A DNA stretch of 64,000 nt, taken from NCBI RefSeq assembly GCF_013168275.1, contig NZ_AP019547.1:682001-746000 (forward strand). The letters are read 5' to 3'. The stretch is from Candidatus Nitrotoga sp. AM1P. GTDB taxonomy: Bacteria > Pseudomonadota > Gammaproteobacteria > Burkholderiales > Gallionellaceae. Shown here piece by piece: positions 19,155-47,444 of the stretch. The notes under the pieces were generated by a model. The model saw only the letters and a program-made list of their open reading frames with translations, was not told the origin of the DNA and did not search any database. A program made the translations under genes and the position numbers. Numbering within the stretch: position 1 is the stretch's first letter; each line of letters starts with the position of its first letter.

Positions 19155-19360
19155 GCCTTACGTAAGCCGATGTGCATCTATTTTTTCCGTGGCTGTCCAT
19201 TTTCAGTTGAATACGCAATTTGAACTTGGCGGCCCACCCCATAGATAGGAAGTTGCGTTTGATCGCTTCGCTATTACAATTCTGAAAACGAATACCGCAT
19301 CCCTAACAAATTCGGTATACACAAAATTCAGGTATCTTCCCCTTTATCCCCCTCTATTTA

Positions 19361-30170: not shown

Positions 30171-30285
30171 TCCATGGTGGGCAGGCGAATGGACTATGGC
30201 AACGTTTCCGCTATAGACAAACTTATAGCCACGAATCTATTCCTTTCCAGTATCACCAGTTATGCAGTTTATTGAGAGTTAAAAA

Positions 30286-30913
30286 ACCACGTCCTATGGA
30301 CGTGGTCATCACCTGATTGGCTTTGCCTGTCAGAGTACCTGCCCATACAGTTATCTTTCGGAGTGTTGTCCCCACAACACTTAACGAAAGGAAAAGATAT
30401 GAGCAGGTTTGCAAGAGCATCGCACGTTATATGGCATTGTCAATATCATTTGGTATGGGTTCCGAAGTACAGATTTCGGATACTCCAAGGGCCGGTAGGT
30501 CGAGAGGTCTATAAATGCGTGATGATATTCAGCCAGTAGTTAGGGTGCGAAGTAGTGGAATTGAATGTGCAGGCGGATCACGTAGACTTGTTGGTAAAGG
30601 TGCCACCGAAATTATCGGTATCGGGCTTGATGGGCATATTGAAAGGTCGTACGGCGATAAGGTTGTTCAGCGTATTTCCGTTTCTCAAGAAACGGCCCTA
30701 TTGGGGCAATCATTTCTGGGCGAAGGGCTACTGTGTTGACACGGTGGGACTGAACGGAGAGATGATACAAAAGTACGTGCGGTTTCAAGAGAAGGAAGAG
30801 CAGCATCAAGAGCAATTACAACTGGAACCTGGCAGAGCGCCTTCTCGGAAGGCGCGATAGGTGTGCCCCCTCTGGGGGGCATTGGGCAATACCACGTTCT
30901 ACGAACGTGGTAT
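30286..30913 (+). mobile_element. IS200/IS605-type insertion sequence, decayed
   Basis: A tnpA pseudogene lies between two subterminal hairpins: left 30286-30306 (CCACGTCC-TAT-GGACGTGG) and right 30889-30913 (CCACGTTCTACGAACGTGG within a longer stem). Single-strand-transposing IS200 elements have exactly this layout, without inverted terminal repeats. Exact tips and target site were not determined. Confidence 0.8.
30399..30860 (+). pseudogene. tnpA: IS200/IS605 TnpA transposase, broken
   Basis: The frame starts MSRFARASHVIWHCQYHLVW, is stopped by TAG at codon 47 (30537-30539), and continues in the same frame as LGCEVVELNVQADHVDLLVK, then GLMGILKGRTAIRLF and GYCVDTVGLNGEMIQKYV. Intact relatives have a lysine where the stop is and DHVHLL at the HUH metal site; here the second histidine is replaced by aspartate. 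Both changes should abolish activity. Downstream the acidic tail (QEKEEQHQEQLQLE) is still readable. Confidence 0.88.
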
Positions 30914-31080
30914 GTTTACTTCACAATCAGCTTTTCTGATGGGCTTTCAGTAGGCAATTTGCGGCCTCGGCCTGATTACCCTGCTAACCATTCAACCCGG
31001 CCAATCACAATTAGTGCGTCAACTGATTTTGTCGCTATGTCTCAATAAACCCGGATAATCTATTAGGAAATGTAACCAGC

Positions 31081-31185
31081 CTCCCCCTTTGCAAAAGGGG
31101 AGAACTTGCGAGGGGGCAGAGGGGGATTTTTGTGCCCCTGCAACGCTCAAATCCCCCCTAGCCCCCCTTTTTGCAAAGGGGGGAA
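31081..31185. repeat. Dispersed palindromic repeat block
   Basis: Two G/C-run hairpins: CTCCCCCTTTGCAAAAGGGG at 31081-31100 and a second built from CCCCCCTTTTTGCAAAGGGGGG at 31161-31182. The block is framed by a weaker inverted repeat (GGATAATCTATTA near 31052 and TAATGGATTATCTGG near 31211), suggesting one mobile palindromic unit of about 170 bases. Confidence 0.6.
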
Positions 31186-31503
31186 TGCGTGTCATCGCGC
31201 AAATCACGTTTAATGGATTATCTGGGATAAATACAGCTCATCATGGCGAAATCGATATACAAACTCACAGCCCGATGGAATCCAGACAAAAAGTTGCGAC
31301 GACTTGAATTCATGACGACCTTCATCAACGGGAAATGCAAGCGGGCCAAGCTGTTGACGCCGACCGAAAATTGACTTGATTTCAGCTTCTATGCCTTTCC
31401 AGCGTATTTATCTATTCCGTGATTTCTGATGTGGTCTTTTGAAAAAGTTTACATCAGAATCAGTTAAAATTTACCGATTGATAATTCAGGATTTTTTCAA
31501 ACG

Positions 31504-31821
31504 ATGGATACGATAAGTGTACTTCTCCTGTTGTTATTAGCCGCGCTGGGGTGGTTCTGGTTCGATAGTCTGCGCGCCCTTGAGATTGCCCGGAATATGG
31601 GAAAAAATATCTGCAACAGAGAAAATCTGCAATTCCTCGACGACACAGTTGCCAACATTGGGCTGGCTCTTGCGCGCGATAAGACTGGACGAAGGGTATT
31701 GCGACGCACCTATCATTTCTTATTCACAGAGACTGGTAACACTCGGCTGGAAGGTCAGTTGGTCTTGCTGGGTGATAAAGTCGAGTCAGTAACGATGGAA
31801 CCCTATCAAATAATGTCCTGA
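31504..31821 (+). CDS. DUF3301 family protein
   Basis: 105 residues. A single N-terminal membrane anchor (ISVLLLLLLAALGWFWFDSL) is followed by the family pattern ALEIARNMGKNICNRENLQFLDDTVA and RRTYHFLFTETGNTRLEGQLVLLGDKV. The family is widespread in beta- and gammaproteobacteria and has no established function. The protein is probably inner-membrane anchored with a small cytoplasmic beta domain. It is a likely core gene lying inside the accessory segment between prfB and lysS. Confidence 0.85.
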   Translation: MDTISVLLLLLLAALGWFWFDSLRALEIARNMGKNICNRENLQFLDDTVANIGLALARDKTGRRVLRRTYHFLFTETGNTRLEGQLVLLGDKVESVTMEPYQIMS

Positions 31822-32042
31822 ACAGATGGCCTTCAAGTGAACTCATATCCTCTTCCGCTACTGGCAGACTCGCACACCGTACGATGAATCAACGTGCCTC
31901 CCACCTTGCCAGTATTCGCTACGCATTAAACCTATAGCTGAACTGGCGGTTCCCAACGATCTATATATTCCTGTTTATTGCCCATCTGCGCGGCGCGGGA
32001 TACTATCCACGGATAAAGTAAAACTGCGTCGATAACAACAAA

Positions 32043-35000
32043 ATGGCAAACGCATTCTTTGATCGTCCAATTCTCAACTCGCCCTATGAATGTCCCTCTC
32101 GCCATTGGGAACTCAACCATGGACAGCCCACACAGCAGGTTATTGAGAAACGCCGCGTTGCGGAATACATAACACCGCTTCCCAAGCCGAAGAAACGCAA
32201 AGGCCAAGCAGAACAAGCATCTCTATTGCTGGATGATGACAAGGGACTTTCAACCCAAGTGCAGGAATACCAAAAAACGGCGGCCATCATCAACGCAGTT
32301 CGCCAGGAAGTTGGCAAGTGGCGTGCGTTGCCTAATCCAAACACTTGGCACGTCACGCCAGAAACTGCCCGGCTGTTACAACATTGGCGGCATCATAAGT
32401 TCAGCGGCGTTCGTCCCTTTTTCTGTCAGGTCGAGGCGGTTGAAACGCTTATCTGGCTGATCGAAGTTGCACCACAATTAGGAAAATCAGCCGAGCGGTT
32501 TCTAGATTATCTGACCAACGCCAGCAACGATGCCAACCCAGAACTGATGAGATTGGCACTGAAGCTCGCCACCGGTGCGGGCAAGACTACCGTCATGGCA
32601 ATGCTGATCGCGTGGCAAACCATCAACGCCGTGCGCCACCCTGCCAGCAAGAAATTCACGCGCGGCTTTTTGATCGTCGCCCCCGGCCTCACCATAAAGG
32701 ATCGTCTGCGCGTACTGCAACCGAATGACCCGGACAGTTATTACCAAAGTCGCGAACTGGTGCCCAGTGACATGATGGGCGATCTCGAGCGCGCCAAGAT
32801 CGTCATCACCAACTACCACGCCTTCAAACTGCGCGAACGCATGGAATTATCCAAAGGCGGACGATTGCTGTTACAAGGACGTAGCGGCGACCCACTCGAT
32901 ACCCTCGAGACTGAAGGCCAGATGCTGCAGCGCGTCATGCCAGAACTGATGGGCATGAAAAACGTTCTGGTCATCAACGATGAAGCTCATCACTGCTACC
33001 GCGAAAAGCCGAAAGCAGATACCGATGACGAAGACTTGAAAGGCGACGACAAAAAAGAAGCCGAAGAAAACAACGAGGCAGCACGTTTATGGATTTCCGG
33101 CCTCGAAGCCATCAATCGCAAGTTGGGTATACCTCGCGTCATTGATCTCTCTGCCACGCCATTCTTCCTGAGCGGCTCCGGCTATGTTGAAGGCACTTTG
33201 TTCCCTTGGACAATGAGCGACTTCTCGCTGATGGATGCCATCGAGTGCGGCATCGTCAAGCTGCCGCGAATACCGGTAGCCGACAACATCCCCGGCAACG
33301 AAATGCCCATGTTCCGCAACCTGTGGGAGCACATTCGCGCCAAGATGCCAAAGAAAGGACGCGGCAAGGGAGAACCACTAAACCCGCTTGACCTGCCGAC
33401 CCAACTTCAAACTGCCCTCGAAGCGCTCTACGGGCACTACGAAAAAACCTTCGAGCTTTGGATGAAAGAAGGTATTTCCGTGCCGCCCTGCTTCATCATC
33501 GTCTGCAACAACACATCGGCATCTAAGCTGGTGTATGACTACATCTCCGGCTTTCAGCAACAGCATGAAAATGGCACCAGCAAACTAATCGAGGGACGTT
33601 TTTCCCTGTTCCGCAACCACGACGAACACGGCAACCCGCTGGGGCGTCCACGCACACTTTTGATCGATAGCGAACAACTTGAATCCGGCGAGGCGCTGGA
33701 CGATAACTTCCGTAACATGGCAGCCGACGAAATCGAGCGTTTCCGCAGTGAGATTTTTGAAAGAGGGGGCAAACTCGCCGACGAACTACGCGCGGGGAAA
33801 TCTATTGACGACGCCACGCTGCTGCGCGAAGTCATGAATACCGTCGGCAAAGCGGGGCAACTGGGCGATTCCATCCGCTGTGTCGTGTCTGTCTCCATGC
33901 TCACAGAAGGCTGGGACGCCAACACGGTCACCCATGTCCTCGGTGTGCGAGCCTTCGGCACCCAGTTGCTGTGCGAACAGGTGATAGGCCGCGCCCTGCG
34001 CCGCCAATCCTATGAGCTCAACGAGAATGGCCCCAACAAAGGTCTGTTCAACGTCGAATATGCCGATGTGCTCGGCATCCCCTTTGACTTCACCGCCAAG
34101 CCCGTGATTGCGCCGCCGCAAAAACCGCGCGAAACCATCCAGGTCAAAGCCATCCGTCCCGACCGCGATAATTGCGAGATCACATTCCCGCGTGTGCAAG
34201 GCTATCGCACCGAGCTGCCGGAAGAGCGGCTCACTGCCGACTTCAACAACGATTCTGTACTCGAACTCACCCCCGATCTGGTGGGCGCAACCGAAACGCG
34301 CAATTCCGGCATCATAGGCGAAACAGTTGATTTGAATCTGGTGCATACCGGCGACGTACGCCCTTCACAAGTCATTTACGAACTGACCTCGCATCTGGTA
34401 CTGACAAAATTTCGCGATGCCAACGGCGACCCCCAGCTCAACCTGTTCGGTCAACTCAAGCGCATCGCACGCCAGTGGATTGAGGGTTATCTGGTGTGCA
34501 AGGGTGGCACCTATCCGGCACAACTCAAATACAAGACGCTGGCCGACATGGCCTGCGAGCGCATCACCGCTGGCATCACTCGCGCACTGGTGGGCAGCAA
34601 GCCGATCAAAGCTGTGCTCGACCCCTACAACCCTGTGGGCAGCACTACGCATGTCAACTTCAACACCTCGAAGCTGGATCGGTGGCAGACCGATGCACGC
34701 CGCTGCCAGATTAACTGGGTAATTCTCGATAGCGATTGGGAAGCCGAATTCTGCCGCGTCGCCGAATCGCATCCGCGCGTCAAAGCCTACGTCAAGAACC
34801 ACAACCTCGGTCTGGAAGTGCCTTATCGCTATGGCTCGGAGATGCGTAAATATATCCCCGACTTCATCGTGCAGGTGGATGACGGCCACGGCGAGGATGA
34901 CTTGCTTAACCTCATCGTCGAGATCAAAGGCTACCGCCGCGAAGATGCCAAGGAAAAAAAGAACACCATGGACGTCTACTGGGTGCCCGGCGTGAACAAC

Positions 35001-35129
35001 CTCAAGCAGCATGGTCGCTGGGCCTTCGCCGAATTCACCGAGGTGTACCAGATCGAAGCCGACTTCACGAAAAAGGTCGAGGCCGAATTCAACAAAATGA
35101 TTGATGGAACACTAAAGAATGAGGGGTGA
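32043..35129 (+). CDS. Helicase-nuclease restriction enzyme (BPTD_3080-type, type III Res-like)
   Basis: 1028 residues. N-terminal 150 residues are family-specific (RPILNSPYECPSRHWEL). The SF2 motor has Walker A ATGAGKT (about 176-182), DEAH in LVINDEAHHCYR (about 313), DLSATPFF, and a motif VI-like CEQVIGRALRRQSY. The C-terminal domain carries a PD-(D/E)xK nuclease pattern, YIPDFIVQVDD (about 938-948) and LIVEIKGYRRED (about 957-968). It should cleave DNA with ATP, paired with the methyltransferase two genes downstream. It opens a six-gene rightward operon and overlaps the next frame. Confidence 0.88.
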   Translation: MANAFFDRPILNSPYECPSRHWELNHGQPTQQVIEKRRVAEYITPLPKPKKRKGQAEQASLLLDDDKGLSTQVQEYQKTAAIINAVRQEVGKWRALPNPNTWHVTPETARLLQHWRHHKFSGVRPFFCQVEAVETLIWLIEVAPQLGKSAERFLDYLTNASNDANPELMRLALKLATGAGKTTVMAMLIAWQTINAVRHPASKKFTRGFLIVAPGLTIKDRLRVLQPNDPDSYYQSRELVPSDMMGDLERAKIVITNYHAFKLRERMELSKGGRLLLQGRSGDPLDTLETEGQMLQRVMPELMGMKNVLVINDEAHHCYREKPKADTDDEDLKGDDKKEAEENNEAARLWISGLEAINRKLGIPRVIDLSATPFFLSGSGYVEGTLFPWTMSDFSLMDAIECGIVKLPRIPVADNIPGNEMPMFRNLWEHIRAKMPKKGRGKGEPLNPLDLPTQLQTALEALYGHYEKTFELWMKEGISVPPCFIIVCNNTSASKLVYDYISGFQQQHENGTSKLIEGRFSLFRNHDEHGNPLGRPRTLLIDSEQLESGEALDDNFRNMAADEIERFRSEIFERGGKLADELRAGKSIDDATLLREVMNTVGKAGQLGDSIRCVVSVSMLTEGWDANTVTHVLGVRAFGTQLLCEQVIGRALRRQSYELNENGPNKGLFNVEYADVLGIPFDFTAKPVIAPPQKPRETIQVKAIRPDRDNCEITFPRVQGYRTELPEERLTADFNNDSVLELTPDLVGATETRNSGIIGETVDLNLVHTGDVRPSQVIYELTSHLVLTKFRDANGDPQLNLFGQLKRIARQWIEGYLVCKGGTYPAQLKYKTLADMACERITAGITRALVGSKPIKAVLDPYNPVGSTTHVNFNTSKLDRWQTDARRCQINWVILDSDWEAEFCRVAESHPRVKAYVKNHNLGLEVPYRYGSEMRKYIPDFIVQVDDGHGEDDLLNLIVEIKGYRREDAKEKKNTMDVYWVPGVNNLKQHGRWAFAEFTEVYQIEADFTKKVEAEFNKMIDGTLKNEG

Positions 35130-35133
35130 TGCC

Positions 35134-35981
35134 ATGAGCAACATTAAATTGTTTGAATCGAAACATATCCGTTCAATCTGGGACGACAAGGCACAGTGTT
35201 GGTTGTTCGCTGTCGTGGATATTGTCGCGGCTTTAACTGACAGTCAGAACCCCCAAGTCTATTGGCGTGTTTTAAAAAAACGGCTGTTGGCCGAGGACAA
35301 TGAAACCGTTACAAATTGTAACGCTTTGAAAATGACTGCGCCTGATGGGAAGCAACGGCTCACCGATGTGGCGGATACTGAGCAATTGCTTCGACTCATC
35401 CAATCCATCCCCTCGCCCAAGGCAGAACCCTTCAAACGCTGGCTGGCCAGGGTCGGCTACGAACGCCTCGAAGAAATCGAAAACCCCGAACTGGCCGCAG
35501 CACGGATGCGCGAACTTTATAAGGTCAAGGGTTACAGCGACGAATGGATCGAAAAGCGCGTGCGCGGCATCGCCATCCGCGACGAGCTGACTAACGAATG
35601 GCAGAAGCGCGGCGTGAAAGAACAGCGCGAATACTCCATCCTCACCGCCAAAATCAACCGCGCCACTTTCGGCATGACTCCAACCGAGTACAAGGCATTC
35701 AAAAGCCTCGACAAACCGGCGGACAACCTGCGCGACCACATGAATGATCTGGAACTGATCTTCACCATGCTGGGCGAAGCCTCCACCACCGAAATTGCAC
35801 ACAATAAAGACGCGCAAGCTATGTCGAGAATCGCAACGCCGCCGAGGCTGACGGCGCGGTGGCAGGCCGCGCACGGCGCGACCTCGAAAAGAAATCCGGC
35901 AAGCGCGTCGCCAGCCAGGAAAACCACAAGGCTCTGCCCGAAGCAGTGGCGCGCAAACGGCTAAAAAACAAGGATAACTGA
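35134..35981 (+). pseudogene. BRO-N domain protein with a -1 frameshift near the C terminus
   Basis: Start at ATG 35134, behind GAGGGG. The N-terminal BRO domain reads FESKHIRSIWDDKAQCWLFAVVDIVAALTDS, and the second half contains RGIAIRDELTNEWQKRGVK. After DAQ at about 35817 the reading frame changes: the open frame runs to 35964 as unlikely residues, but the other frame from 35820 gives YVENRNAAEADGAVAGRARR then DLEKKSGKRVASQENHK..., stopping at 35981, which is the expected tail. One G is missing from CAAGGC. With it restored the protein would have about 283 residues. BRO-N proteins are DNA-binding, phage antirepressor-like. Real mutation and sequencing error cannot be told apart. Confidence 0.8.
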
Positions 35982-35984
35982 TCG

Positions 35985-38900
35985 ATGGCCAAAGTACCTA
36001 AAAGCAAACTCACCGTCGAAACCATCAAGCACGACGAGGCGACGCGCAAGAACATTCCCACTGCCGAATACCAATCGGTGATGCAAAAGGAAGAGCTGAC
36101 TCCCATCCGCGTGGCCTACGAACGTCGCAATCGCGACCTCGATCCGCAATTGGTCTGGCACGGCAAGGACGAGCAGGACTGGTCTGATTTAGTGGTGCAT
36201 GCGCCGCCGCTCTACATTCAGGAAAAGGTTCACCCCAAGGTGCTGATCGACGACCTGAAACGGCAGACGGAGCAAGCCGAAGCAGACAAAGCGGTCAACC
36301 AGTCTGGCTTCACCACCGACCTCTTTGGCGACTTTAACGGTCTGCCCAACGATGGTGCCAAGACCGAGTTCTACCAGCACGACGCCCATTGGGCCAATCG
36401 CATGATCCTCGGCGATAGCCTGCAAGTGATGGCCAGCCTCGCCGAGCGCGAAGGGCTGCGCGGCAAGGTGCAATGCATCTATTTCGATCCGCCCTACGGC
36501 ATCAAATTCAACTCCAACTTCCAGTGGTCCACCACCAGCCGCGACGTCAAGGACGGCAACGCTGGTCACATCACCCGCGAGCCGGAGCAAGTAAAAGCCT
36601 TTCGCGATACTTGGCGCGATGGCATTCACTCCTACCTTACCTATCTGCGCGACAGGCTGACCGTGGCGCGGGATTTGTTGACCGATTCCGGGTCGATCTT
36701 TGTGCAGATCGGGGATGAGAATGTGCACCGGGTGCGGGCGGTGATGGATGAGGTATTTGGGGAGGATAACTTCGTCTCAACGATTGCATACGCAAAAACT
36801 ACCGGGTTCTCTGGTGATACGCTTTCAAATGTCGCTGACTACATGGTTTGGTTTGCCAAGAAAAAAGACCTGCTTAAGTACCGCGATCTCTATACGGCGA
36901 AGCAAGCTGGCGAAGCTGGTGCAACAAAATATCGCGAGATATCGTCTATTCAGGCTCTTAGAAACTCTACGCATGAACGGACTCGCCTTGCGACGTCAGA
37001 TCAGCTGACGTCGCAAGGCGAGTCCAGTTCGGAGCAGATGTTTCCTTTCGCCGGACGTAAATGGACTGCGCCGAAAGGACTGCACTGGAAAACGACCGTT
37101 GAAGGCTTGATTCGTACCGCAAAAGCAGAGCGAATAATGGAAGAGGGCGCCTCAGTCAGGTACGTACGCTGCCTTGATGATTTCGCAGCCACACCAAGAA
37201 CGAATCTCTGGCTTGACATTGGAGGCGTCCAAAGCCGAACCGATCCCAAGATATATGTGGTGCAGACAGCAACGGAGGCCGTACAGCGCTGCGTCCTCAT
37301 GACTACCGACCCTGGCGATCTCGTCCTCGACCCCACCTGCGGTTCCGGCACGACGGCCTATGTCTCCGAGCAATGGGGCCGCCGCTGGATCACCATCGAC
37401 ACTTCTCGCGTCGCACTGGCGTTGGCCCGCGCCCGCATCATGGGAGCGCGCTACCCCTACTATCTGCTCGCCGACAGCCGCGACGGCCAGATCAAAGAAA
37501 GCGAAGTCACCCGCACCGTTCCATCGAGTCAGCCCACGCGCGGCAATATCCGCCAAGGCTTCGTCTATGAACGTGTGCCGCACATCACCCTGAAATCCAT
37601 CGCTAACAACACCGAGATTGATGTCATCTGGGACAAGTGGCAGCAGACGCTGGAATCGTTGCGTGAACAACTCAACAAGGCGCTGGGCAAGCAATGGCAG
37701 GAATGGGAAATCCCCCGCGAGCTTCCGAAATCCGTTCGCCCTGAGCCTGTCGAAGGGCGTGCTTCGACCTCGCCTTCAGTGCTGAGTACTGTTCCCGCTC
37801 ACCCTTCGACAGGCTCAGGGCGAACGGCAACAGTAGTCGAAGCATCAGCACGAACGGAGGAGGAGATTCACCGGGAATGGTGGAGTGCGCGCATCGCCCG
37901 CCAGAAAGAAATCGACGCCTCCATCGCAGCCAAAGCCGAGCACGAATACCTCTACGACAAACCCTACGAGGATAAGAAAAAAGTCCGCGTTGCTGGGCCG
38001 TTCACCGTCGAAAGCCTCTCGCCCCATCGCGTGTTGGCTGTGGATGAAAACGACGAACTGATCGACGGTGTCGCCGAATCCAAGACCGGCTACGGTGAAG
38101 AGCGCGACTTCGTCCAGATGATCCTGGAAAACCTCAAGACCGCTGGCGTGCAGCAGGCGCACAAAGAAGACAAAATCACCTTCACCACGCTCACCCCGTG
38201 GCCCGGCGATCTGGTCTGCGCCGAAGGCAAGTATCTGGAACCCTCTCCCCTTGGAAGAGGACAGGGTGAGGGTGGAGTTGAACGCCGCGCCGCCATCTTC
38301 ATCGGTCCCGAATTCGGCACCGTCTCTCGTCCCGATCTGGTCTCTGCCGCACGAGAAGCAGGAGACTCTGGCTTTGATGTACTCATCACCTGTGCCTTCA
38401 ACTACGATGCGCATTCATCCGAATTCGACAAACTCGGACGCATCCCCGTGCTCAAGGCGCGCATGAACGCCGACCTGCACATGGCCGATGACCTCAAGAA
38501 CACCGGCAAGGGCAACCTCTTCGTCATCTTCGGCGAACCCGACATCGACATTCTCGATGCCGAAGCCGGTCAGGTTCGCGTCAAGATCAACGGTGTGGAC
38601 GTATTCCACCCCAACACCGGCGAAGTACGCAGCGACGGTGCCGAGGGCATTGCCTGCTGGTTCATCGACACCGACTACAACGAAGAAAGCTTCTTCGTCC
38701 GCCACGCCTACTTCCTGGGAGCAAACGATCCCTACAAGGCACTCAGAACCACCCTCAAAGCCGAGATCAACGAAGATGCCTGGGCATCGCTCAACAGCGA
38801 CACCTCAAGGCCATTCGATAAACCGAAGTCCGGGCGGATTGCGGTGAAGGTCATCAATCATCTGGGGGATGAAGTGATGAAGGTGTTTAAGGTTGTGTGA
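35985..38900 (+). CDS. Site-specific DNA-methyltransferase (type III Mod-like, beta class)
   Basis: 971 residues. The catalytic motif DPPY lies in IYFDPPYGIKFN (about 166-175) and the SAM motif in DLVLDPTCGSGTTAY (about 444-458), in the order of beta-class adenine methyltransferases. It should protect the host from the helicase-nuclease encoded upstream. Two dispersed repeats interrupt the C-terminal half in frame: residues about 582-625 (RPEPVEG...HPSTGSGRT) and about 752-765 (PSPLGRGQGEGG). Both fall between blocks that otherwise look normal (REWWSARIARQKEID, DAHSSEFDKLGRIPVLKARM). The next gene starts by a one-base overlap. Confidence 0.88.
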   Translation: MAKVPKSKLTVETIKHDEATRKNIPTAEYQSVMQKEELTPIRVAYERRNRDLDPQLVWHGKDEQDWSDLVVHAPPLYIQEKVHPKVLIDDLKRQTEQAEADKAVNQSGFTTDLFGDFNGLPNDGAKTEFYQHDAHWANRMILGDSLQVMASLAEREGLRGKVQCIYFDPPYGIKFNSNFQWSTTSRDVKDGNAGHITREPEQVKAFRDTWRDGIHSYLTYLRDRLTVARDLLTDSGSIFVQIGDENVHRVRAVMDEVFGEDNFVSTIAYAKTTGFSGDTLSNVADYMVWFAKKKDLLKYRDLYTAKQAGEAGATKYREISSIQALRNSTHERTRLATSDQLTSQGESSSEQMFPFAGRKWTAPKGLHWKTTVEGLIRTAKAERIMEEGASVRYVRCLDDFAATPRTNLWLDIGGVQSRTDPKIYVVQTATEAVQRCVLMTTDPGDLVLDPTCGSGTTAYVSEQWGRRWITIDTSRVALALARARIMGARYPYYLLADSRDGQIKESEVTRTVPSSQPTRGNIRQGFVYERVPHITLKSIANNTEIDVIWDKWQQTLESLREQLNKALGKQWQEWEIPRELPKSVRPEPVEGRASTSPSVLSTVPAHPSTGSGRTATVVEASARTEEEIHREWWSARIARQKEIDASIAAKAEHEYLYDKPYEDKKKVRVAGPFTVESLSPHRVLAVDENDELIDGVAESKTGYGEERDFVQMILENLKTAGVQQAHKEDKITFTTLTPWPGDLVCAEGKYLEPSPLGRGQGEGGVERRAAIFIGPEFGTVSRPDLVSAAREAGDSGFDVLITCAFNYDAHSSEFDKLGRIPVLKARMNADLHMADDLKNTGKGNLFVIFGEPDIDILDAEAGQVRVKINGVDVFHPNTGEVRSDGAEGIACWFIDTDYNEESFFVRHAYFLGANDPYKALRTTLKAEINEDAWASLNSDTSRPFDKPKSGRIAVKVINHLGDEVMKVFKVV
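37732..37827. repeat. Dispersed inverted repeat inserted in frame in the methyltransferase gene
   Basis: Two perfect 26-base arms (37732-37757 and 37802-37827) face each other; the arm begins CCGTTCGCCCTGAGCCTGTC. The family also occurs at 12550-12674. A further partial copy (CGAACGGA) ends near 37858. The block adds about 43 residues without breaking the frame. Confidence 0.85.
38241..38275. repeat. Second dispersed repeat inserted in frame in the methyltransferase gene
   Basis: CCCTCTCCCCTTGGAAGAGG followed by ACAGGGTGAGGGTGG is a common palindromic intergenic repeat of proteobacteria. Here it is translated as PSPLGRGQGEGG between the blocks EGKYLE and ERRAAIFIGPEFG. Confidence 0.75.
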
Positions 38901-41524
38901 TGGCATTGATTGACGAAATTCTAAAGTGGTCAGAAGAGAAGCTACCTCTCTGGCAACGTGATGCGGCTCGCCGTATATTTCAGCAAGAGAATGGCTTGTC
39001 TGTCGATGATTACGCGGAGCTATATACCTTACTGAAAGCAGCCCATGGGTTACCTAACCCATTGGGCCTGACACCAGAGCCGTTAAAGGCGGCTCATCTG
39101 CCGCCGGTGCTTCAAGCTGGCGAGAAGGTTGTTCTGAAGGCGATACGAAATTTGGTGTATGTAAACCGAATCGCGCAGGGGCAGAAACTGAATTTCGCAC
39201 CATCGGGAATGACGGTGATCTACGGTGGAAACGGAAGCGGGAAGTCGGGCTATGTAAGAGTAATGAAACGGGCATGCCGTGCACGAGATCAGGCAGAGAA
39301 AGTCCTTGCAGATGCAAACGATCCTGCTGCCCAGAATAGCGTGCCTAAAGCAATTTTCGACATTGAAATTAACGGGGCTTGCAAACCTATACACTGGACT
39401 TTCAATAGTGACTCACCCGACGATCTGGCTAAGATTTCAGTTTTCGATTCACACTGTGCTCGCGCTTACCTGACTGCCGAGCAGGATGTGGCTTATCTGC
39501 CATATGGGCTGGACGTTGTTGAGAATCTTGCAAATAAAGTTCTACCAGAGTTGACTCGCCGCCTTAACGAAGAAATTGCTACTATCAATGTTGATCGCCA
39601 ACCATTCCAGCATTTAGTTGGCGAGACAGAAGTTGGGCGGCTGGTTCTAGCACTAAGCGAAAGGACGAATCCAGACAAGGTTAAAGCTCTTGGCACATTA
39701 TCCGAGATCGATACGGCACAGATTAAGGAAATTGACGCAGCACTTGCCGAATCTGATCCAGGAAAGAAAGCAAAAGAGCATCGCCTTTCAGCGGGGCGTT
39801 TAAAGAGTTGGGCGGAAAGAATCGAAACCGCATTGTCTTGGGTCAGTGATGCCGCTATAGAGAAACTCAAAAAAATTACCGATACCACGGTCACTGCCAA
39901 TCAGACCGAGAAGCAAGCAGCAGAAACACTTCAGTCAGGAGAATTGCTTCTGCCTGGAACCGGTGAGCCAGTATGGAAGGTATTGTTTAATGCTGCACGC
40001 AAGTTCTCAACTGAGGTCGCCTATCCAGAACATTCGTTCCCTCATGCCACTGCCGAGGCAAAATGTCCTCTCTGTCAGCAACCGTTGAACGATGCCGGAG
40101 AACGGTTGAAACGATTTGAGGAATATATACAAAACGATGTGGCTAAAGCTGCCGCAGAGCAACGACAAAAACTTGAAGCAACAAAGGTAAAGATTGAAAG
40201 AGCCAACCTGAGCGTTAGTTTCGACAAATCTCATGTTGAAGAGCTGGCACAGCTTGATGATGCAGTTGCCTCTATTATCAATGCATTTGAAAAAAACATA
40301 GAAACTCGCCGTAGTTGGATGCTTCAAAATCTCAACTCCTATACGTGGGTGGACGCGCCCGCGCTTGGAGAGAATCCACGTAAGCGACTGCGTAATCTCG
40401 CTGCACATCAATTCAAGTCAGCAAGAATCCTTGCCCGAGCAGTGGACGAAGTTAAGAAAAAATCGCTGATAGATAAACGAGAAGAACTACGTGTTCGCCA
40501 GAATCTTTCAGCATGCCTAGGCGCAGTGCTTGCACTGATTGACCGATTTAAGATGAGGCAGGCACTAAAAACCTGTGAACAAGACCTTAAAACAAGGCCA
40601 ATTTCAGACAAGTCAAAAGAATTTGCAAGTGGTGCTGTTACTGTTGCGCTAAAAAATGCGTTGGATGAGGAATTCAAGTCTCTCGGGATAGGACATATAC
40701 AAACTAAGCTTAAAGATCGAAATGATAAAGGGAAAATTAAGCACCAATTACTTCTGGATCTCCCAACAACAAACAAACTGGAACAAATACTCAGTGAAGG
40801 TGAGCAGCGAGCCATCGCACTGGGTTCATTCCTCTCAGAATTGAAGCTTGCAAATCATGCATGCGGCATCGTTTTTGATGACCCCGTTTCATCACTGGAT
40901 CACATACGCCGAGGCAGAGTCGCAAGGCGATTGGCGGTAGAGTCCAAGCAAAGACAGGTTTTGATTTTCACTCACGATGTTGTGTTTCTTCAGCAGTTAC
41001 GAGATCAATGCGACAAGCTTAATGTGCCACCGTTTTTTTGCCGACTTGAGGCGAACAGGGGTTTTTATGGCAACGTATCCGAAGGGCTTCCATGGACACA
41101 CAAGAGCTATGGCGAAAGAATCGACTTCCTAGAAAAGGCACAAAAGCAATTTGAGAAAATGCCATGGCCTGCTGACCCATCAGAGGAGCTGGCTCGTGAG
41201 ATGATCCGGCAATACAGTTTTCTCAGGGCAACAATTGAGCGGGTGGCACAAGATTTTGTTCTTGGCGGCACAGTGCAGCGTTTTAAGGATTACATAGACG
41301 TTAAGAAGCTGAAGCTGGTGATTGGACTTCAAAAATCAGAAGTAGATGAAATTCTCCGCATTAACCAACGTTGCCATGATTTGGTCGAGGCACATGATCC
41401 ATCCTCAGCTAAGGATGAGCCGCCACCAACTCCTGATGAACTGAAACAAGACATTGCCGATTTACAGAAGCTAATTCAAGGCATCACGGATCGGCGAAAA
41501 GGCGCAGCAAATAGGGTGACGTGA
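38900..41524 (+). CDS. Rad50/RloC-like AAA ATPase with zinc hook and possible HEPN nuclease tail
   Basis: 874 residues from the ATG at 38900, which overlaps the methyltransferase stop (TGATG). Walker A is GGNGSGKS (109-116), signature LSEGEQRA (631-638), Walker [12 protein letters not shown] (657-667), and IFTHD at 689-693. The middle is coiled coil with a CPLC pair at 389-392, like the zinc hook of Rad50 and RloC. Near the C terminus R776 and E780 (RATIE) and R820-x5-H826 (RINQRCH) resemble the R/E/H and HEPN-type residues of anticodon nucleases. RloC couples such parts to cut tRNA in response to DNA damage. The ATPase and hook are clear; the nuclease call is inference. Confidence 0.72.
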   Translation: MALIDEILKWSEEKLPLWQRDAARRIFQQENGLSVDDYAELYTLLKAAHGLPNPLGLTPEPLKAAHLPPVLQAGEKVVLKAIRNLVYVNRIAQGQKLNFAPSGMTVIYGGNGSGKSGYVRVMKRACRARDQAEKVLADANDPAAQNSVPKAIFDIEINGACKPIHWTFNSDSPDDLAKISVFDSHCARAYLTAEQDVAYLPYGLDVVENLANKVLPELTRRLNEEIATINVDRQPFQHLVGETEVGRLVLALSERTNPDKVKALGTLSEIDTAQIKEIDAALAESDPGKKAKEHRLSAGRLKSWAERIETALSWVSDAAIEKLKKITDTTVTANQTEKQAAETLQSGELLLPGTGEPVWKVLFNAARKFSTEVAYPEHSFPHATAEAKCPLCQQPLNDAGERLKRFEEYIQNDVAKAAAEQRQKLEATKVKIERANLSVSFDKSHVEELAQLDDAVASIINAFEKNIETRRSWMLQNLNSYTWVDAPALGENPRKRLRNLAAHQFKSARILARAVDEVKKKSLIDKREELRVRQNLSACLGAVLALIDRFKMRQALKTCEQDLKTRPISDKSKEFASGAVTVALKNALDEEFKSLGIGHIQTKLKDRNDKGKIKHQLLLDLPTTNKLEQILSEGEQRAIALGSFLSELKLANHACGIVFDDPVSSLDHIRRGRVARRLAVESKQRQVLIFTHDVVFLQQLRDQCDKLNVPPFFCRLEANRGFYGNVSEGLPWTHKSYGERIDFLEKAQKQFEKMPWPADPSEELAREMIRQYSFLRATIERVAQDFVLGGTVQRFKDYIDVKKLKLVIGLQKSEVDEILRINQRCHDLVEAHDPSSAKDEPPPTPDELKQDIADLQKLIQGITDRRKGAANRVT

Positions 41525-42528
41525 TGAGCGAATCGCAACACTTCCTGATCTACCAAAGCGAAGACGGCTCCACCCGCATTGACGTGATGCTGGAGGCGGA
41601 AACCCTTTGGCTGAACCAGAAGCAGTTGACCGAGTTGTTCGGCAAGGCCAAAGGGACAATCAGCGAGCATATCAAACACATCTTCGAGGATGGTGAAATG
41701 ACTCCGGAGGCAACTGTTCGGTTATTCCGAACAGTTCAACCTGAGGGGGGGCGTGACGTGACCCGCGAGGTTGAACACTACAATCTGGACATGGTGCTGG
41801 CTCTGGGCTTCCGGGTGCGCAGCCCTGTGGGCGTGCGTTTCCGCCAGTGGGCCAACGACAAGCTGAAGGAATATATCGTCAAGGGCTTTGTGCTGGATGA
41901 CGCGCGTCTGAAAAACCCCGGCAAAGGGCGGGATTACTTCGACGAACTGACACGCCGCCTGCAAGACATACGCACCAGTGAGCGGCGGTTTTACCAGAAG
42001 ATTACGGACATCTACGCGACCAGCGTGGATTACGATGCCAACCATGCGCTCACCCAGGCGTTCTTTGCCACGGTGCAGAACAAGGTGCATTTCGCCATTC
42101 ACGGCCAGACTGCCGCCGAACTGATCGCCACCCGTGCCGACAGCAGCCAGCCGAACATGGGGTTGACGACTTGGGAGGGGGCACGCATTCGCAAGGCCGA
42201 TGTGAGCATCGCCAAGAATTACCTGAACGATGAAGAGCTGCGCGCCCTCAATAATCTGGCCGAGCAGTATTTGATTTTTGCCGAAGGTCAGGCTGCACGG
42301 CATATAGCCATGACTATGCAAGACTGGATCAGCAAACTGGAAGGTTTTTTGACACTGAATGACCGCGAGATTTTGCAAGGCGCAGGCAAGGTATCGGCTG
42401 AGCTTGCCAAATCTCACGCAGAGCAGGAGTTCGACAAATGCCGGGTATTGGATGACCAGCGTTTCGAGTCTGACTTCGATCGCATGGTGAAGCGATTGCC
42501 CGCCAAAACGCCAGGGAAGGAAAACTGA
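41524..42528 (+). CDS. RhuM-family protein
   Basis: 334 residues from ATG 41524 in a TGATG overlap. Family pattern is strong: FLIYQSEDGSTRIDVMLEAET, LWLNQKQLTELFGKAKGTISEHI (a helix-turn-helix-like region), YNLDMVLALGFRVRSPVGVRFRQW, and YLNDEELRALNNLAEQYLIFAE. RhuM was named from a Salmonella pathogenicity island, and relatives are frequent in restriction and toxin loci, but the biochemical role is not established. The first part resembles phage antirepressors, so a regulatory role in this defence operon is possible. It looks complete. Confidence 0.87.
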   Translation: MSESQHFLIYQSEDGSTRIDVMLEAETLWLNQKQLTELFGKAKGTISEHIKHIFEDGEMTPEATVRLFRTVQPEGGRDVTREVEHYNLDMVLALGFRVRSPVGVRFRQWANDKLKEYIVKGFVLDDARLKNPGKGRDYFDELTRRLQDIRTSERRFYQKITDIYATSVDYDANHALTQAFFATVQNKVHFAIHGQTAAELIATRADSSQPNMGLTTWEGARIRKADVSIAKNYLNDEELRALNNLAEQYLIFAEGQAARHIAMTMQDWISKLEGFLTLNDREILQGAGKVSAELAKSHAEQEFDKCRVLDDQRFESDFDRMVKRLPAKTPGKEN

Positions 42529-44609
42529 TGGATTTCCGCATCGCCGATACATTCACTGACAGCCTCGTCAAACTCACAGGCGAAGAGCAGAAAGCTGTCA
42601 AGACCACTGCCTTCGATCTGCAAATGAACCCGATCAATCCCGGCATGAGTTTCCACAAGCTGGACAAGGCGCGTGACAAGAATTTCTGGTCGGTGCGAGC
42701 CAGCAGCGACATCCGTTTGATCGTCCACAAAAACGATGCCAGCCTGTTGTTGTGCTATGTCGATCATCACGACAAGGCCTATGACTGGGCGGAACGGCGC
42801 AAGTTGGAAACGCATCCACAAACCGGCGCGGCACAGTTGGTGGAGATACGCGAGACGGTGCAGGAAATCGTTATCCCTAAGTATGTCGAGGTGATGCAAT
42901 ACGCTGCAGCGAAGCCGCGCCTGTTCGCCCATGTCGCCGAAGAGGTACTGCTGAGCTACGGCGTGCCGGAAGAGTGGTTGCCTGATGTGCAACAAGCCGA
43001 CGAGGACAGCCTGCTTGATCTGGCCGAGCATCTGCCGGGCGAGGCGGCGGAGGCGTTACTGGAGCTGGCCACCGGCGGCAAGCCGCAAGTAGTACCACCC
43101 ATCGCAGCAGGGGCTGACCCTTTTGCACATCCCGATGCGCAACGCCGCTTCCGGGTGATGAATGATGTTGAGGAGCTGGAACGTGCACTGGCGTTTCCGT
43201 GGGAGAAGTGGACAACTTTTCTTCATCCGGCGCAGCGGCAGTGGGTGGAGCGGGATTACAGCGGCCCAGCGCGCGTCTCCGGTTCGGCGGGTACGGGCAA
43301 AACCATTGTCGCGTTGCATCGTGCGGTGTTTCTGGCGCGGCAACATCCTGAATCGCGCGTGTTGCTGACTACGTTCTCCGACACTTTGGCAAATGCGTTG
43401 CACACCAAGCTGCGGCGATTGATCAGCAACGAGCCGCGTCTGGCGGAGCGACTGGAAGTGCATTCCATGAATGCCATAGGCGAGCATATGTATGAATTGC
43501 ACTTTGGTCGACCTAAAATTGCCAGCGCAGACAAAATCAGGCAATTGTTGGTTGAAGCAGCCAGCAAGACTGATGGGCAGAGATTCGGTCCGCACTTTCT
43601 GAAGACGGAGTGGGACGAGGTGGTGGATGCATGGCAATTGGATGGCTGGGAGGCTTATCGCGATGTACGGCGACTGGGGCGCAAGACACGCCTGCCAGAG
43701 CCGCAGCGTGTGTTGCTCTGGTCTATCTTCGATGCAGTGCGAAGTGCATTGAAGTCACAGGGCTTGGTTACTCGCTCCGCGATGTTCAGCCAGTTGGCCG
43801 CACAGATTGTCGAGCGCAAGCATCCACCTTTCGATTTCGCAGTGATGGACGAGGCGCAGGATGTCAGCGTAGCTCAGCTGCGTTTCCTTGCGACGATGGG
43901 TGCTTGGCGTACCGATGCCCTGTTTTTCGCGGGCGATTTAGGCCAACGTATTTTCCAGCAGCCGTTTTCGTGGAAGTCGCTGGGCGTGGATATTCGCGGA
44001 AGATCATGCACGCTGCATATCAACTATCGCACCTCACATCAGATCAGGATGCAGGCCGACCGATTGCTGGGTCCGGAAGTTTCCGATGTGGACGGCAACA
44101 CGGAAAACCGGCGCGGCACGGTGTCGGTATTCAATGGCATAGCGCCGGTTATCAAGACATTCGACAGTCAGGAAGATGAAATCAACGCGGTCGGCGACTG
44201 GCTGCGTGAGCGAAGCAGCGAGGGAATTGCACCGCACGAGATCGGCGTATTCGTCCGTTCCGATAATGAATTAGAGCGCGCTCGCGTGGCAATCGGGAAA
44301 TCCGGACTGCCTTTTAAGATGCTTGATGAGCATGTCGAAACGACCAGCGGTTATATTTCCATCAGCACGATGCACTTGGCCAAGGGGTTGGAATTTCGCG
44401 CAGTGATTGTGATGGCGTGCGACGATGAAATTATTCCTTCTCAGGATCGCATCGAAACGGTAGCTGACAATGCCGACTTGGAAGAGGTCTACAACACCGA
44501 GCGACATTTGCTCTATGTCGCATGCACTCGCGCTAGAGATCATCTGCTGGTAACCAGCGTTGAACCTGCTTCCGAATTTCTTGCTGATTTGCTTGTGGAG
44601 GTTGACTGA
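42528..44609 (+). CDS. RelE-like domain fused to a UvrD/Rep-type helicase
   Basis: 693 residues from ATG 42528 in a TGATG overlap. Residues 1-95 resemble a RelE/HigB-type toxin fold: FHKLDKARDKNFWSVRASSD, IRLIVHKNDASLLLCYVDHH, DKAYDWAERRK. From about 215 the protein is a superfamily 1 helicase: Walker A GSAGTGKTIVALHRA (about 251-265), LLTTFSDTLANAL, AVMDEAQDVSVAQLRF, INYRTSHQIR, STMHLAKGLEFRAVIVMACD and LLYVACTRARDHLLV. Such helicases move 3'-5' on DNA. Whether the RelE-like part keeps nuclease activity is unknown. It is the last gene of the operon and is followed by a strong hairpin. Confidence 0.85.
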   Translation: MDFRIADTFTDSLVKLTGEEQKAVKTTAFDLQMNPINPGMSFHKLDKARDKNFWSVRASSDIRLIVHKNDASLLLCYVDHHDKAYDWAERRKLETHPQTGAAQLVEIRETVQEIVIPKYVEVMQYAAAKPRLFAHVAEEVLLSYGVPEEWLPDVQQADEDSLLDLAEHLPGEAAEALLELATGGKPQVVPPIAAGADPFAHPDAQRRFRVMNDVEELERALAFPWEKWTTFLHPAQRQWVERDYSGPARVSGSAGTGKTIVALHRAVFLARQHPESRVLLTTFSDTLANALHTKLRRLISNEPRLAERLEVHSMNAIGEHMYELHFGRPKIASADKIRQLLVEAASKTDGQRFGPHFLKTEWDEVVDAWQLDGWEAYRDVRRLGRKTRLPEPQRVLLWSIFDAVRSALKSQGLVTRSAMFSQLAAQIVERKHPPFDFAVMDEAQDVSVAQLRFLATMGAWRTDALFFAGDLGQRIFQQPFSWKSLGVDIRGRSCTLHINYRTSHQIRMQADRLLGPEVSDVDGNTENRRGTVSVFNGIAPVIKTFDSQEDEINAVGDWLRERSSEGIAPHEIGVFVRSDNELERARVAIGKSGLPFKMLDEHVETTSGYISISTMHLAKGLEFRAVIVMACDDEIIPSQDRIETVADNADLEEVYNTERHLLYVACTRARDHLLVTSVEPASEFLADLLVEVD

Positions 44610-44999
44610 TAGCAGACGGTGACTGGCCGCTTCGGGTCGCTATGTAAAACTTTACATAGCGACCCGAAGCATAAGACCGAACTATGTGAAGTGCCGCGCA
44701 GGAGAACGTCTCAGATTGACGTATTCTGTTGGCTTTGGACACTATAACTTGGCTGTGAACTAGACATTAGCTCGCTTCTCTGCATAGGGGTCGAAGCCGG
44801 CCATTCGTGAATGGCAAGTTTGTGCCAGAAACAGCCATTTGCAAATTGCCCAAACTGTTGCATGAGCAGCGGGATGAGCTCAAAGAGATTGTCTGGCTAG
44901 TTTAGCTTCTGCTTGTAAATCCCACAGAATCAGACCAAAATGTTTACATTTATTGCTATAAGATCTATGAATTCAACAACGCAGATAGCATCTATAAAA
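44610..44999. other. Intergenic region at the right end of the defence operon
   Basis: About 390 bases. It holds the hairpin at 44629-44670, and at 44790-44860 a GGCCATTCGTGAATGGC palindrome of the type seen in dispersed intergenic repeats. The start of the following secreted protein is uncertain, so its promoter is not located. Confidence 0.4.
44629..44670. terminator. Hairpin at the end of the defence operon
   Basis: Arms 44629-44648 and 44651-44670 are perfect 20-base reverse complements (GCTTCGGGTCGCTATGTAAA / TTTACATAGCGACCCGAAGC). It lies 20 bases after the last stop. A T-run is lacking, so the termination role is inferred from position and stem strength. Confidence 0.6.
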
Positions 45000-45830
45000 A
45001 TGAAAAATATCAAATCTCTATTCGAAAACAAGATTAATGGCGCCTTCCAAATTGCTATCGCTCGCAAGCTGCGTACTTGCTTTGGCGCGGTTATGACGCT
45101 GGCGTTTCTTCTTGTATCGCCTATGGCCAGTTCGACGGGCTTTACCGTTTATACCACGATCTCACCAATGACAGGCTTATGGTCGAATCAGAATGAATCT
45201 GGCTGGGGTGTTGGACTTACTCAGCAATATGGTGTGATTTTCGCTACGCTCTATACCTACGATTTTGATGGTAGGCCAACGTGGTATGTCGCTTCTAATT
45301 GTGTGGTGGCGGCCGATGGGTGTACTGGCGATTTATACGCGGTAACGGGAGGCTCAGCGCTGACAATTCCATGGAACAGTGCCAATAAGATCGTAACTAC
45401 GGTTGGAACGATCAATTTTGCGTTTACTGATACCAATACTGGCACAATGAAATATACGATTAACGGTGCATCAGGATCAAAGAGGATTACAAGACAAGTG
45501 TTTGCCACTGAACCGGTTCAGGCGGGTCACTTTCCTTTTGACTTCAAAGGTATTCGACTCAACTCTATGGCATTCAACCCCTTATTTGGCATTATTTGCC
45601 AAGCTACGTTGTCATTTACCAATGTGAGCGCCGTCACAGTTTCACCTACCCTCTCCTTCGATGTAATAGTCGATGGTGTTATAACGGGCCAGGTGCCTTT
45701 CCTTACCTTTGGGCTTGCACCAGGCGCTACAGCGACAGCGACTTCACAACCGGTGGTGAACAATGGCTCGTATCTGGCATGCGGTACCTTCACACTTCAA
45801 TTTAATTCGTCTGCCAGTCAGGTACGTTAG
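45000..45830 (+). CDS. Secreted protein with a GLWSNQNESGWGVGLTQQ-type domain
   Basis: 276 residues from the ATG at 45000; the frame is open to ATGs at 44940 and 44967 and none has a good Shine-Dalgarno. A signal-type hydrophobic segment lies at LTLAFLLVSPMASS-like residues 40-55 of the longer form. The mature part opens with GLWSNQNESGWGVGLTQQ and FATLYTYDFDGRPTWYVAS, a pattern I know from many proteobacterial exported proteins of unknown function. The C-terminal part (SFTNVSAVTVSPTLSFDVIV) looks like a beta sandwich. Probably an envelope or secreted protein. Confidence 0.7.
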   Translation: MKNIKSLFENKINGAFQIAIARKLRTCFGAVMTLAFLLVSPMASSTGFTVYTTISPMTGLWSNQNESGWGVGLTQQYGVIFATLYTYDFDGRPTWYVASNCVVAADGCTGDLYAVTGGSALTIPWNSANKIVTTVGTINFAFTDTNTGTMKYTINGASGSKRITRQVFATEPVQAGHFPFDFKGIRLNSMAFNPLFGIICQATLSFTNVSAVTVSPTLSFDVIVDGVITGQVPFLTFGLAPGATATATSQPVVNNGSYLACGTFTLQFNSSASQVR

Positions 45831-45938
45831 GCCTTCGCATATGCTTTGCTTAAATTGCACGTAATATGGCATTCGTGCCACAATCCTGCGCCTTTGGAAG
45901 TACTCCTGAATTCTTGATCTTAAATTTATCCACACATC

Positions 45939-47444
45939 ATGACTACCGAACCAACCAACCCTCAGCAAGACGAAAATCAAATTATCACCGAGCGCCGCGC
46001 CAAGCTCACTACACTTCGCAAAGAAAGCGTAGCTTTTCCGAATGATTTTGAGCGAAAAAATCTGGCTGGTGATTTGCATGATGCTTACGATGCAATGAGC
46101 CACGACGAACTGGAGACAGTACATATAGGCGTGGCCATAGCCGGGCGCATGATGTTAAAACGAGTAATGGGTAAAGCCAGCTTTGCCACTGTGAATGACA
46201 TGAGCGGACGCATCCAGCTATTCATTAATAATAGCGATACCGGCGAAATTGCGCATGATGCCTTCAAGCACTATGACCTGGGCGACATACTTGGTGCAAC
46301 AGGCGTACTGTTTAAAACCAAAACGGGTGAACTTTCTGTTCGTGTGACTGAGCTGCGTCTGTTAACTAAAGCACTCCGCCCGTTACCGGAAAAATTTCAC
46401 GGTCTGAGCGATCAGGAACAAAAATACCGTCAACGGCATGTGGATCTCATCACCAATGAAGACACGCGCAAAACATTTATCATTCGCTCCAAAGTAATTC
46501 AGGCTATACGGGAATTTTTCATACGCCACAATTACCTCGAAGTCGAAACGCCAATGATGCATTCCATTCCGGGTGGCGCATCGGCCAAACCCTTTATCAC
46601 GCACCACAATGCCTTGGATATGCAGCTGTATCTGCGCATTGCGCCGGAGCTGTATCTTAAGCGGCTAGTGGTCGGTGGGTTTGAGAAGGTATTCGAAATC
46701 AACCGCAACTTTCGCAATGAAGGGCTTTCCACGCGACATAACCCCGAATTCACCATGATCGAGTTTTATGAAGCCTATCGGGATTATCGTTATCTAATGG
46801 ACTTCACCGAGAAACTGTTTAGCGAAGTGGCGCGCAAGGTGCTGGGCACCACAGTGTTCTCTTACCAGGGACGTGAACTTGACTTGGGGCAACCGTTCCA
46901 TCGACTGACCATTGCACAGGCAATCCAGAAATATCATCCGCAGTTTTCTGACGCACAATTGAACGACCGCGATTTTCTGATCAACGAATTACAAGACCTG
47001 AAGGCCAAATACAGGACGGCGGATGGTGTGGGCGGACTGCAACTTTCGCTGTTTGAAGAACTGACCGAACATCAATTATTCGAGCCAACTTTCATCATCG
47101 ACTATCCCGCAGAGGCCTCGCCACTGGCACGCCGCAGTGATACGCGCCCAGAAATTACCGAGCGTTTTGAACTGTTTATGGTTGGGCGCGAAATCGCTAA
47201 TGGTTTCTCTGAGTTAAATGACCCGGAAGACCAGGAAGCCCGTTTTGATGCGCAAGTATCGGCTCGGGAAGCAGGTGACGAAGAAGCCATGTTCAAGGAC
47301 AGCGATTATATTCGCGCGCTGGAATATGGCTTGCCACCCACCGCTGGAGAGGGCATCGGAATAGACCGACTAGTGATGCTGCTCACCGATAGCCCCAGCA
47401 TTCGCGATGTGATTTTATTTCCACAAATGCGCCCCGAAAGGTAA
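45939..47444 (+). CDS. lysS: Lysyl-tRNA synthetase, class II
   Basis: 501 residues, normal for bacterial LysS. The N-terminal anticodon-binding OB fold includes [17 protein letters not shown]. Class II motifs follow: motif 1 around [22 protein letters not shown], motif 2 [22 protein letters not shown], motif 3 [19 protein letters not shown]. It charges tRNA-Lys, the known target of PrrC-type nucleases. It usually follows prfB directly; here 17 kb of accessory genes lie between. It converges on the metalloprotease gene. Confidence 0.97.

Follow-up and report, generated by a model that had tools for sequence, protein, structure and literature searches.

Six consecutive genes in Candidatus Nitrotoga sp. 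AM1P, at positions 32043 to 44609 of a 64,000-nucleotide stretch of contig NZ_AP019547.1 (forward-strand positions 682,001 to 746,000; this whole stretch is the window), raise the question of whether they form a single defence system or a smaller system that carries others. From 5′ to 3′, all on the plus strand, they are RES (32043-35129), a BPTD_3080-family restriction enzyme with a superfamily 2 (SF2) helicase and a C-terminal PD-(D/E)xK domain; a BRO-N protein (35119-35964); MOD (35985-38900), a large beta-class DNA methyltransferase resembling type III Mod; an RloC-like zinc-hook ABC ATPase (38900-41524, with an upstream GTG at 38897); a RhuM-family protein (41524-42528, with an upstream GTG at 41521); and RU (42528-44609), in which a RelE/HigB-like domain (residues ∼1-95) is fused to a UvrD-type helicase related to ArmD. 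A preliminary description of this DNA had proposed a six-gene operon, and the order and families it gave were upheld, all six open reading frames (ORFs) being on one strand and matched by profiles. We consider it probable that the locus is a DNA-defence core of three genes, RES, MOD and RU, with three accessory defence genes embedded in it: BRO-N between RES and MOD (the RES|MOD slot), the ATPase and RhuM between MOD and RU (the MOD|RU slot). The architecture of the core, its linkage and the parallel divergence of its genes are observed, whereas its activity is inferred.

RES matched NF046055 (BPTD_3080 restriction endonuclease) with 1364.6 bits against a cut-off of 800, as well as the ResIII and RE_endonuc families of Pfam, and carries the motifs ATGAGKT, DEAH, SATPF, QVIGRALR and PDF..EIK. 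MOD (971 residues) matched N6_N4_Mtase (PF01555) and the PADLOC model MTase_III (1428.9 bits), and its DPPY at 168 precedes its DPTCGSG at 449, i.e., motif IV before motif I, the order of the beta class. The pair thus resembles type III restriction-modification in its helicase-nuclease, its beta-class Mod and the neighbouring position of the two genes. It differs in the length of MOD, in the weak match of RES to the PADLOC REase_III models (E 1.6e-4 only), and in the third gene, RU, that accompanies it. Type III enzymes act as a Res-Mod complex on an asymmetric site, require two inversely oriented sites and cleave 25-27 bp away. Weaker matches to both genes occur at two other places on contig 1 of the same genome: ∼1175000-1194900 (locus L050; 568-residue MOD match of 89 bits, 901-residue RES match of 24 bits, with a DNA match to RhuM nearby) and 2826000-2842000 (L053; 892-residue RES match of 80 bits, 765-residue MOD match of 114 bits).

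The preliminary description had placed the RelE-UvrD gene among four genes added to a restriction pair. A survey of 398 genomes of the phylum, in which RES was defined as NF046055 over its cut-off, showed that it instead belongs with RES and MOD. RES was found in 27 genomes, the window's own included. RU scoring at least 500 bits was found in 19, namely 18 of the 27 RES-positive genomes versus 1 of the 371 others (Fisher p=1.3e-23; p=1.8e-22 without the window's genome); the 500-bit line was set after the scores were known, and these form two groups, 516-1573 and 260-344 bits. In the nineteenth genome (G004), which has no RES over the cut-off, RU starts at the first bases of its contig. Among the 26 other RES genomes, 16 have RU 3′ of MOD and in the same orientation, and the contig ends before the expected position of RU in 5 (L023, L028, L033, L040, L047); in one of these (G018, locus L023) RU was detected on a different contig (L165). 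MOD (E ≤1e-100) was present in 3 of 60 genomes of the family, as expected for a horizontally acquired unit.

The same arrangement was seen in a set of 42 RES loci, from which ten redundant loci and all those shorter than 6.5 kb had been excluded, and which overlaps with the 27 RES genomes without being the same set. RU is present in 35 of the 42, always downstream and on the same strand, and five loci are bare RES-MOD-RU trios (L021, L030, L054, L076, L098). Pairwise distances of RES, MOD and RU over 31 loci were correlated (r=0.88, 0.93 and 0.87, the value for RES versus RU being 0.93), and none of 2000 permutations gave values as high. Of 12 plasmid RES matches of at least 50% identity, 10 had RU on the same record; three of these 10 records are P. 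amygdali plasmids of near-equal size, and one is a Tistrella plasmid.

What kind of protein is RU? Its C-terminal part contains UvrD domains by Pfam, with the motor motifs intact. Its N-terminus matched HigB-like_toxin with E 8.6e-4 and 20.2 bits, below the cut-off of 27; with the limit relaxed to E 10, 16 of 22 RU N-termini gave a match (best 2.5e-6), and the best match among PDB profiles was YoeB, at E 0.015. In the predicted model the elements follow the order E-H-H-E-E-E-E, with block means of the predicted local distance difference test (pLDDT) of 73-91 over residues 1-90, in a model whose overall mean pLDDT is 70 and whose predicted template modelling score is 0.45. These faint profile matches and the predicted order of elements hint at a RelE-like N-terminal domain. 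Eight residues (S55, R63, I65, H81, D82, A84, Y85 and W87) are invariant in 22/22 RU N-termini from all contexts, suggestive of a conserved active or binding site.

A RelE-UvrD fusion helicase is known from ARMADA type II, where it is ArmD; deleting any ARMADA gene, or mutating the Walker A motif of ArmD, abolishes defence (PMC12458937, in the portion of the paper available). ARMADA-like operons (ArmA-ArmB-ArmC-ArmD) terminate in a UvrD protein that is a full-length relative of RU, with 30-37% identity over 93-99% of RU (tblastn, plasmid genes), and in both settings the UvrD protein is paired with a methylase and large helicases. In six plasmid records a DEAD/DEAH helicase of 1838-2133 residues lies directly 5′ of the UvrD protein, and a methylase precedes the helicase in the five where this position is visible. 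The weaker genomic RU matches (260-344 bits), from six genomes, each lie directly 3′ of an ORF of 1281-2134 residues (the shortest cut by a contig end), and it is from the length of this ORF, not its family, that their ARMADA context was assigned. The window differs in having no YprA-like ArmC, BrxHII-like ArmA or PglX-like ArmB, and membership in ARMADA was rejected, none of the three being found among the six genes or the ten flanking genes scanned. A phage origin of RU was likewise rejected: four phage records matched, none over 80% coverage, the best covering 43% at 24% identity.

In an unrooted tree of 51 RU proteins, from which ten of 61 rows had been left out (duplicates from a single place and some other rows from viral contigs), a 98/97 branch sets the 12 ARMADA rows apart. 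On the other side are 36 RES-MOD rows, a label that includes rows with MOD alone in view (L074, L087), together with two unplaced rows and one from a Qipengyuania citrea plasmid (L101). On that plasmid, at 7787-19757, RU occupies a third context, following a TM0106 RecB-like nuclease and a 240-residue gene and preceding a DUF4011 gene of 1900 residues.

Several observations weigh against a core that includes RU. In five of the 26 other RES genomes RU is absent from the sequence available: one has a MOD of normal length (G125, locus L024), two have a truncated or missing MOD (G105 and G065; truncated in L044, not found in L045), and two have a distant RES with MOD on its other side (G253 and G123; L042, L043). 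Both RES and RU of genome G175, one of the 16 with RU 3′ of MOD, contain an internal stop, and neither the viral contig L077 nor the Burkholderiales metagenome-assembled genome (MAG) L011 has RU. On the Tistrella plasmid MOD precedes RES and RU is encoded on the other strand, two Methylibium plasmids with RES of at least 50% identity have no RU, and L101 has RU without RES or MOD. The 42 loci are not independent, some having been collected with RU (L084-L098), MOD (L076-L081) or the ATPase (L011, L012) as bait, and several viral contigs being near-copies. Across 35 loci, the window included, no more than 54 of 131 junctions are start/stop overlaps (of 1, 4, 8 or 11 bases), in a count limited to ORFs of at least 90 residues with mechanically assigned starts. 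As for RU itself, the tree program warned of long branches meeting, and a midpoint root places two Thermales ArmD rows nearest the RES-MOD rows; VIA-align of the RU model covered residues 219-693, the helicase, with no RelE fold among the 50 rows listed. Finally, the RU listing, which showed 60 of 98 records, contained no full-length RU for the 27 full-length plasmid RES matches below 50% identity. RES-MOD can therefore exist without RU, and the trio marks off a subset of the RES-MOD family.

The existence of RES-MOD pairs without RU bears on the best-surviving alternative, that RES and MOD form a conventional type III-like restriction-modification system located within a defence island, with RU and the other genes unrelated neighbours on a shared transcript. 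The matches of RES and MOD to type III-like families and the high variability of the genes between them point the same way. An unrelated neighbour, however, would not be expected in 18 of 27 RES genomes versus 1 of 371 others, nor to diverge in parallel with RES (r=0.93), nor to lie downstream on the same strand in all 35 of the 42 loci that have it. We regard this alternative as unlikely.

The RelE/HigB-like similarity of RU brings in a further alternative, that RU is an addiction or safety module whose RelE-like toxin is held by MOD or RES and stabilises the locus. Restriction operons are often addictive. The five bare trios contain no same-strand ORF of at least 60 residues in their slots, and hence no candidate for a separate antitoxin. 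The UvrD motor motifs of RU are intact, and the Walker A motif of ArmD is needed for ARMADA defence (PMC12458937, available in part); addiction would need neither, and we find this explanation very improbable.

If RES, MOD and RU are the core, what are the three genes between them? Most loci other than the bare trios have genes in the RES|MOD slot, the MOD|RU slot or both. Over both slots of the 42 loci we counted 65 such cargo ORFs of at least 100 residues, in 41 clusters, the window's three included. Pfam matches of 40 of the 41 cluster representatives included nucleases (HNH, two PD-(D/E)xK families, NYN, PIN, GmrSD, REase-ARP), AAA ATPases, BRO-N and RhuM; ten representatives were also scanned singly against Pfam, and three of these gave no match. 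PADLOC matches of the cargo included PDC, HEC, AbiLi and AriA models, among the 25 of 186 families listed. The window's BRO-N, ATPase and RhuM matched PDC-S13, PDC-S06 and PDC-S05 respectively, and so belong to the families that PADLOC holds as 'guilt-by-embedding' candidates, found embedded in defence systems (PMC12988326, from the part of the text available). Combinations vary from locus to locus: L012 has RES-MOD-ATPase-RU, L022 has RES-BRO-N-MOD-x-RU, and the genus mate G406 has RES (split across two contig ends), MOD, a cargo gene of 394 residues and RU, the product of the 394-residue gene being 89% identical to L022 cargo. BRO-N, the ATPase and RhuM are cargo, not core, and their families travel independently.

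The BRO-N protein matched Bro-N (PF02498) with 43.2 bits against a cut-off of 25.6, and PDC-S13 with 366 bits over residues 7-237 (233 of 286 profile positions matched). Its last ∼45 residues are read in a frame that differs from that of the L022 relative, of which residues 28-260 and 259-310 match in two frames; judging from the reading frames, part of the protein may be impaired, or the assembly may be wrong. RhuM matched PF13310 with 367 bits (cut-off 33.7) and PDC-S05 with 472 bits. In L009 a fragment of RhuM, interrupted where the contig stops, comes immediately after the ATPase, and ∼10 kb of upstream sequence contain neither RES nor MOD; the ATPase and RhuM may thus be a travelling pair.

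The ATPase (875 residues) matched AAA_13 (PF13166) and PDC-S06 (631 bits) and has a CPLC motif. Its RloC-like nature had been noted in the preliminary description and was strengthened by an alignment of 97 of the 120 relatives listed (2501 were found), 55-92% identical. In 97/97 the ABC motifs are kept (G109, G114-K115-S116, L631-S632, G634-E635, D660-D661-P662, T691-H692), as are the CxxC zinc hook C389/C392, located between Walker A and the ABC signature, and the anticodon-nuclease triad R776-X3-E780-X51-H832. The His of 'RCHD' (H826) was rejected as the triad His, being kept in 64/97 only. CPLC also occurs in two remote relatives, together with an R-x3-E-x48-H pattern. RloC combines ABC motifs, a CxxC zinc-hook insert and Arg-X3-Glu-X36-52-His in 658-897 residues; 8 of 72 RloC genes are reported to lie in restriction loci of type I or III, and the nuclease to become more active when the zinc hook is mutated (PMC2610378, consulted as partial text). 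The window's ATPase shares these motifs with the RloC/PrrC proteins and falls within the RloC length range. It differs from RloC in the residue before the conserved His, which is Ala (90) or Ser (7) in the 97 rows, Ser being common in RloC, and in that its gene is embedded in a RES-MOD-RU locus. With HEPN assigned by these motifs, the ATPase is likely to be a second-line anticodon nuclease. It was also considered as a core gene and rejected as such: at E ≤1e-50 it was found in 18 of 398 genomes, 3 of the 27 RES-positive versus 15 of the 371 others (p=0.11), and in the two genomes outside the window that have both genes (G154, G133) they lie on different contigs.

The preliminary description had taken the overlapping junctions to suggest coupled translation of a functional set. 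One-base TGATG overlaps are indeed present at three junctions, MOD|ATPase, ATPase|RhuM and RhuM|RU; RES and BRO-N overlap by 11 bases, and a 20-base gap separates BRO-N from MOD. Overlaps are common across RES-MOD-RU operons, so that coupling in the window is no mark of six-part function. The co-occurrence check that had been proposed for the six families found the complete set only once among 42 RES loci, namely in the window. In the Burkholderiales MAG L011, RES, a BRO-N protein, MOD, the ATPase and RhuM follow one another in the order of the window, then JetD (Wadjet). A machine in which all six proteins act together, to which six same-strand genes with three one-base overlaps and the gene order of L011 lend some appearance, is thus dismissed on its single occurrence as very improbable, the more so as only 3 of 18 ATPase genomes have RES (on different contigs outside the window), L011 lacks RU and has a BRO-N not found by phmmer (1e-4) with that of the window as query, the G+C content of the ATPase gene is 0.47 versus 0.55-0.57 for the other five, and the BRO-N tail of the window is out of frame.

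For the RES-MOD-RU core and its cargo we envisage the following mechanism. MOD would methylate host copies of a target site, and RES, the helicase-nuclease, would attack DNA without the methyl mark. The RU motor would work on DNA engaged or opened by RES, by comparison with the requirement for ArmD in ARMADA type II, its RelE-like domain possibly serving as a nucleic-acid-binding or RNase part. The zinc hook of the RloC-like ATPase would sense DNA damage, and, should restriction be blocked or DNA breaks build up, its C-terminal anticodon nuclease would halt translation. RhuM could be a partner of the ATPase, travelling with it, or a further effector; BRO-N would be a separate embedded candidate, possibly impaired here. 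Since overlapping stop and start codons are frequent, cargo is probably co-translated with the core.

A more ambitious proposal, which we put forward tentatively as one that may hold, is that RES-MOD-RU is an unnamed, obligate three-component system. Its ArmD-type motor would be shared with ARMADA type II after one ancient switch, in either direction, and would be the indispensable effector of the type III-like restriction system. The operon would be a two-slot docking platform for dozens of unrelated second-line genes, often joined through overlapping stop/start codons.

How much of this is new? A multilevel defence was proposed in 2013 for loci in which PrrC-like genes accompany restriction and RhuM-like genes (PMC3710099, available in part). 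The idea there is the same, the successive layers being restriction at the DNA level, a HEPN nuclease acting at the RNA level, and RhuM. The text available describes neither the window's locus nor the RES-MOD-RU trio, and the main text contains 'Bro-N' 0 times and 'UvrD' once. RES-MOD-RelE/UvrD was not described as a unit in the available portions of PMC12458937, PMC3710099, PMC12988326, PMC2610378 and PMC10853773, and a literature search found no paper on BPTD_3080, nor one that brings RhuM and Bro-N together with type III restriction-modification. The parts are mostly of known kinds, and the RES-MOD-RU trio appears to be unnamed. Two broader claims of the preliminary description hold in part. 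As to layered defence, a restriction core with an RNA-attack gene is supported, and the functional set of six is not, given its occurrence in 1 of 42 loci and the lack of association of the ATPase with RES. As to an undescribed system, the full set occurs in the window only and the trio appears unnamed; on the other side, the multilevel idea is in print (PMC3710099), the cargo belongs to PDC families, and the RelE-UvrD fusion has been published as ArmD of ARMADA (PMC12458937), both papers as far as their available text goes.

If RU is required, one RelE-helicase would be common to ARMADA type II and to a type III-like restriction system, and its so far unexplained role would become testable in a three-gene setting. 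Some loci filed as plain type III restriction would then be three-component systems. The two cargo slots are in addition a targeted source of candidate defence genes, with 41 clusters from 42 loci.

The boundaries of the acquired DNA were located by comparison with five genus mates. DNA similarity to all five is lost at 31826-31900; in four of them it is regained at 44898-44985. These breaks indicate that a block of ∼13 kb with the six genes (approximately 31900-44900) replaced or entered the place between the prfB-like and lysS-like genes. In the genus mate G403, which lacks the block, the ORF at 31504-31821 is followed within ∼40 bp by that at 44940-45830, and in G406 and G409 a GGDEF/EAL-type gene, as read from translations, is found at the site. 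The G+C content of the block is 0.538, versus 0.479 for the rest of the window, and there is no integrase or transposase among the six genes. The prfB-lysS interval as a whole (28733-45939) varies in the genus, and in G400 no prfB match was found in ∼18 kb upstream of lysS.

Repeats were observed inside MOD and after RU. A REP-like inverted repeat at 37732-37828 (26-bp arms, 44-base loop) is read in frame as MOD residues 588-623; this repeat-derived insert of 36 residues is gapped in >80% of 33 relatives, and the repeat has short matches at other places in the same genome. A second, perfect inverted repeat of 21 bp with a 5-base loop lies in the MOD coding sequence at 36979-37026, where the protein is alike in many relatives. 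The longest inverted-repeat arm in 40 synonymous shuffles of the MOD ORF was 9 bp, and the MOD genes of seven other loci showed no arm of at least 14 bp. Directly 3′ of the RU stop, a perfect 20-bp inverted repeat with a 2-base loop (44629-44670), found by eye and without a T run, is a possible end-of-transcript hairpin. Outside the block, the segment at 30270-30900 resembles by eye an IS200-type element, each end of which carries the same short stem.

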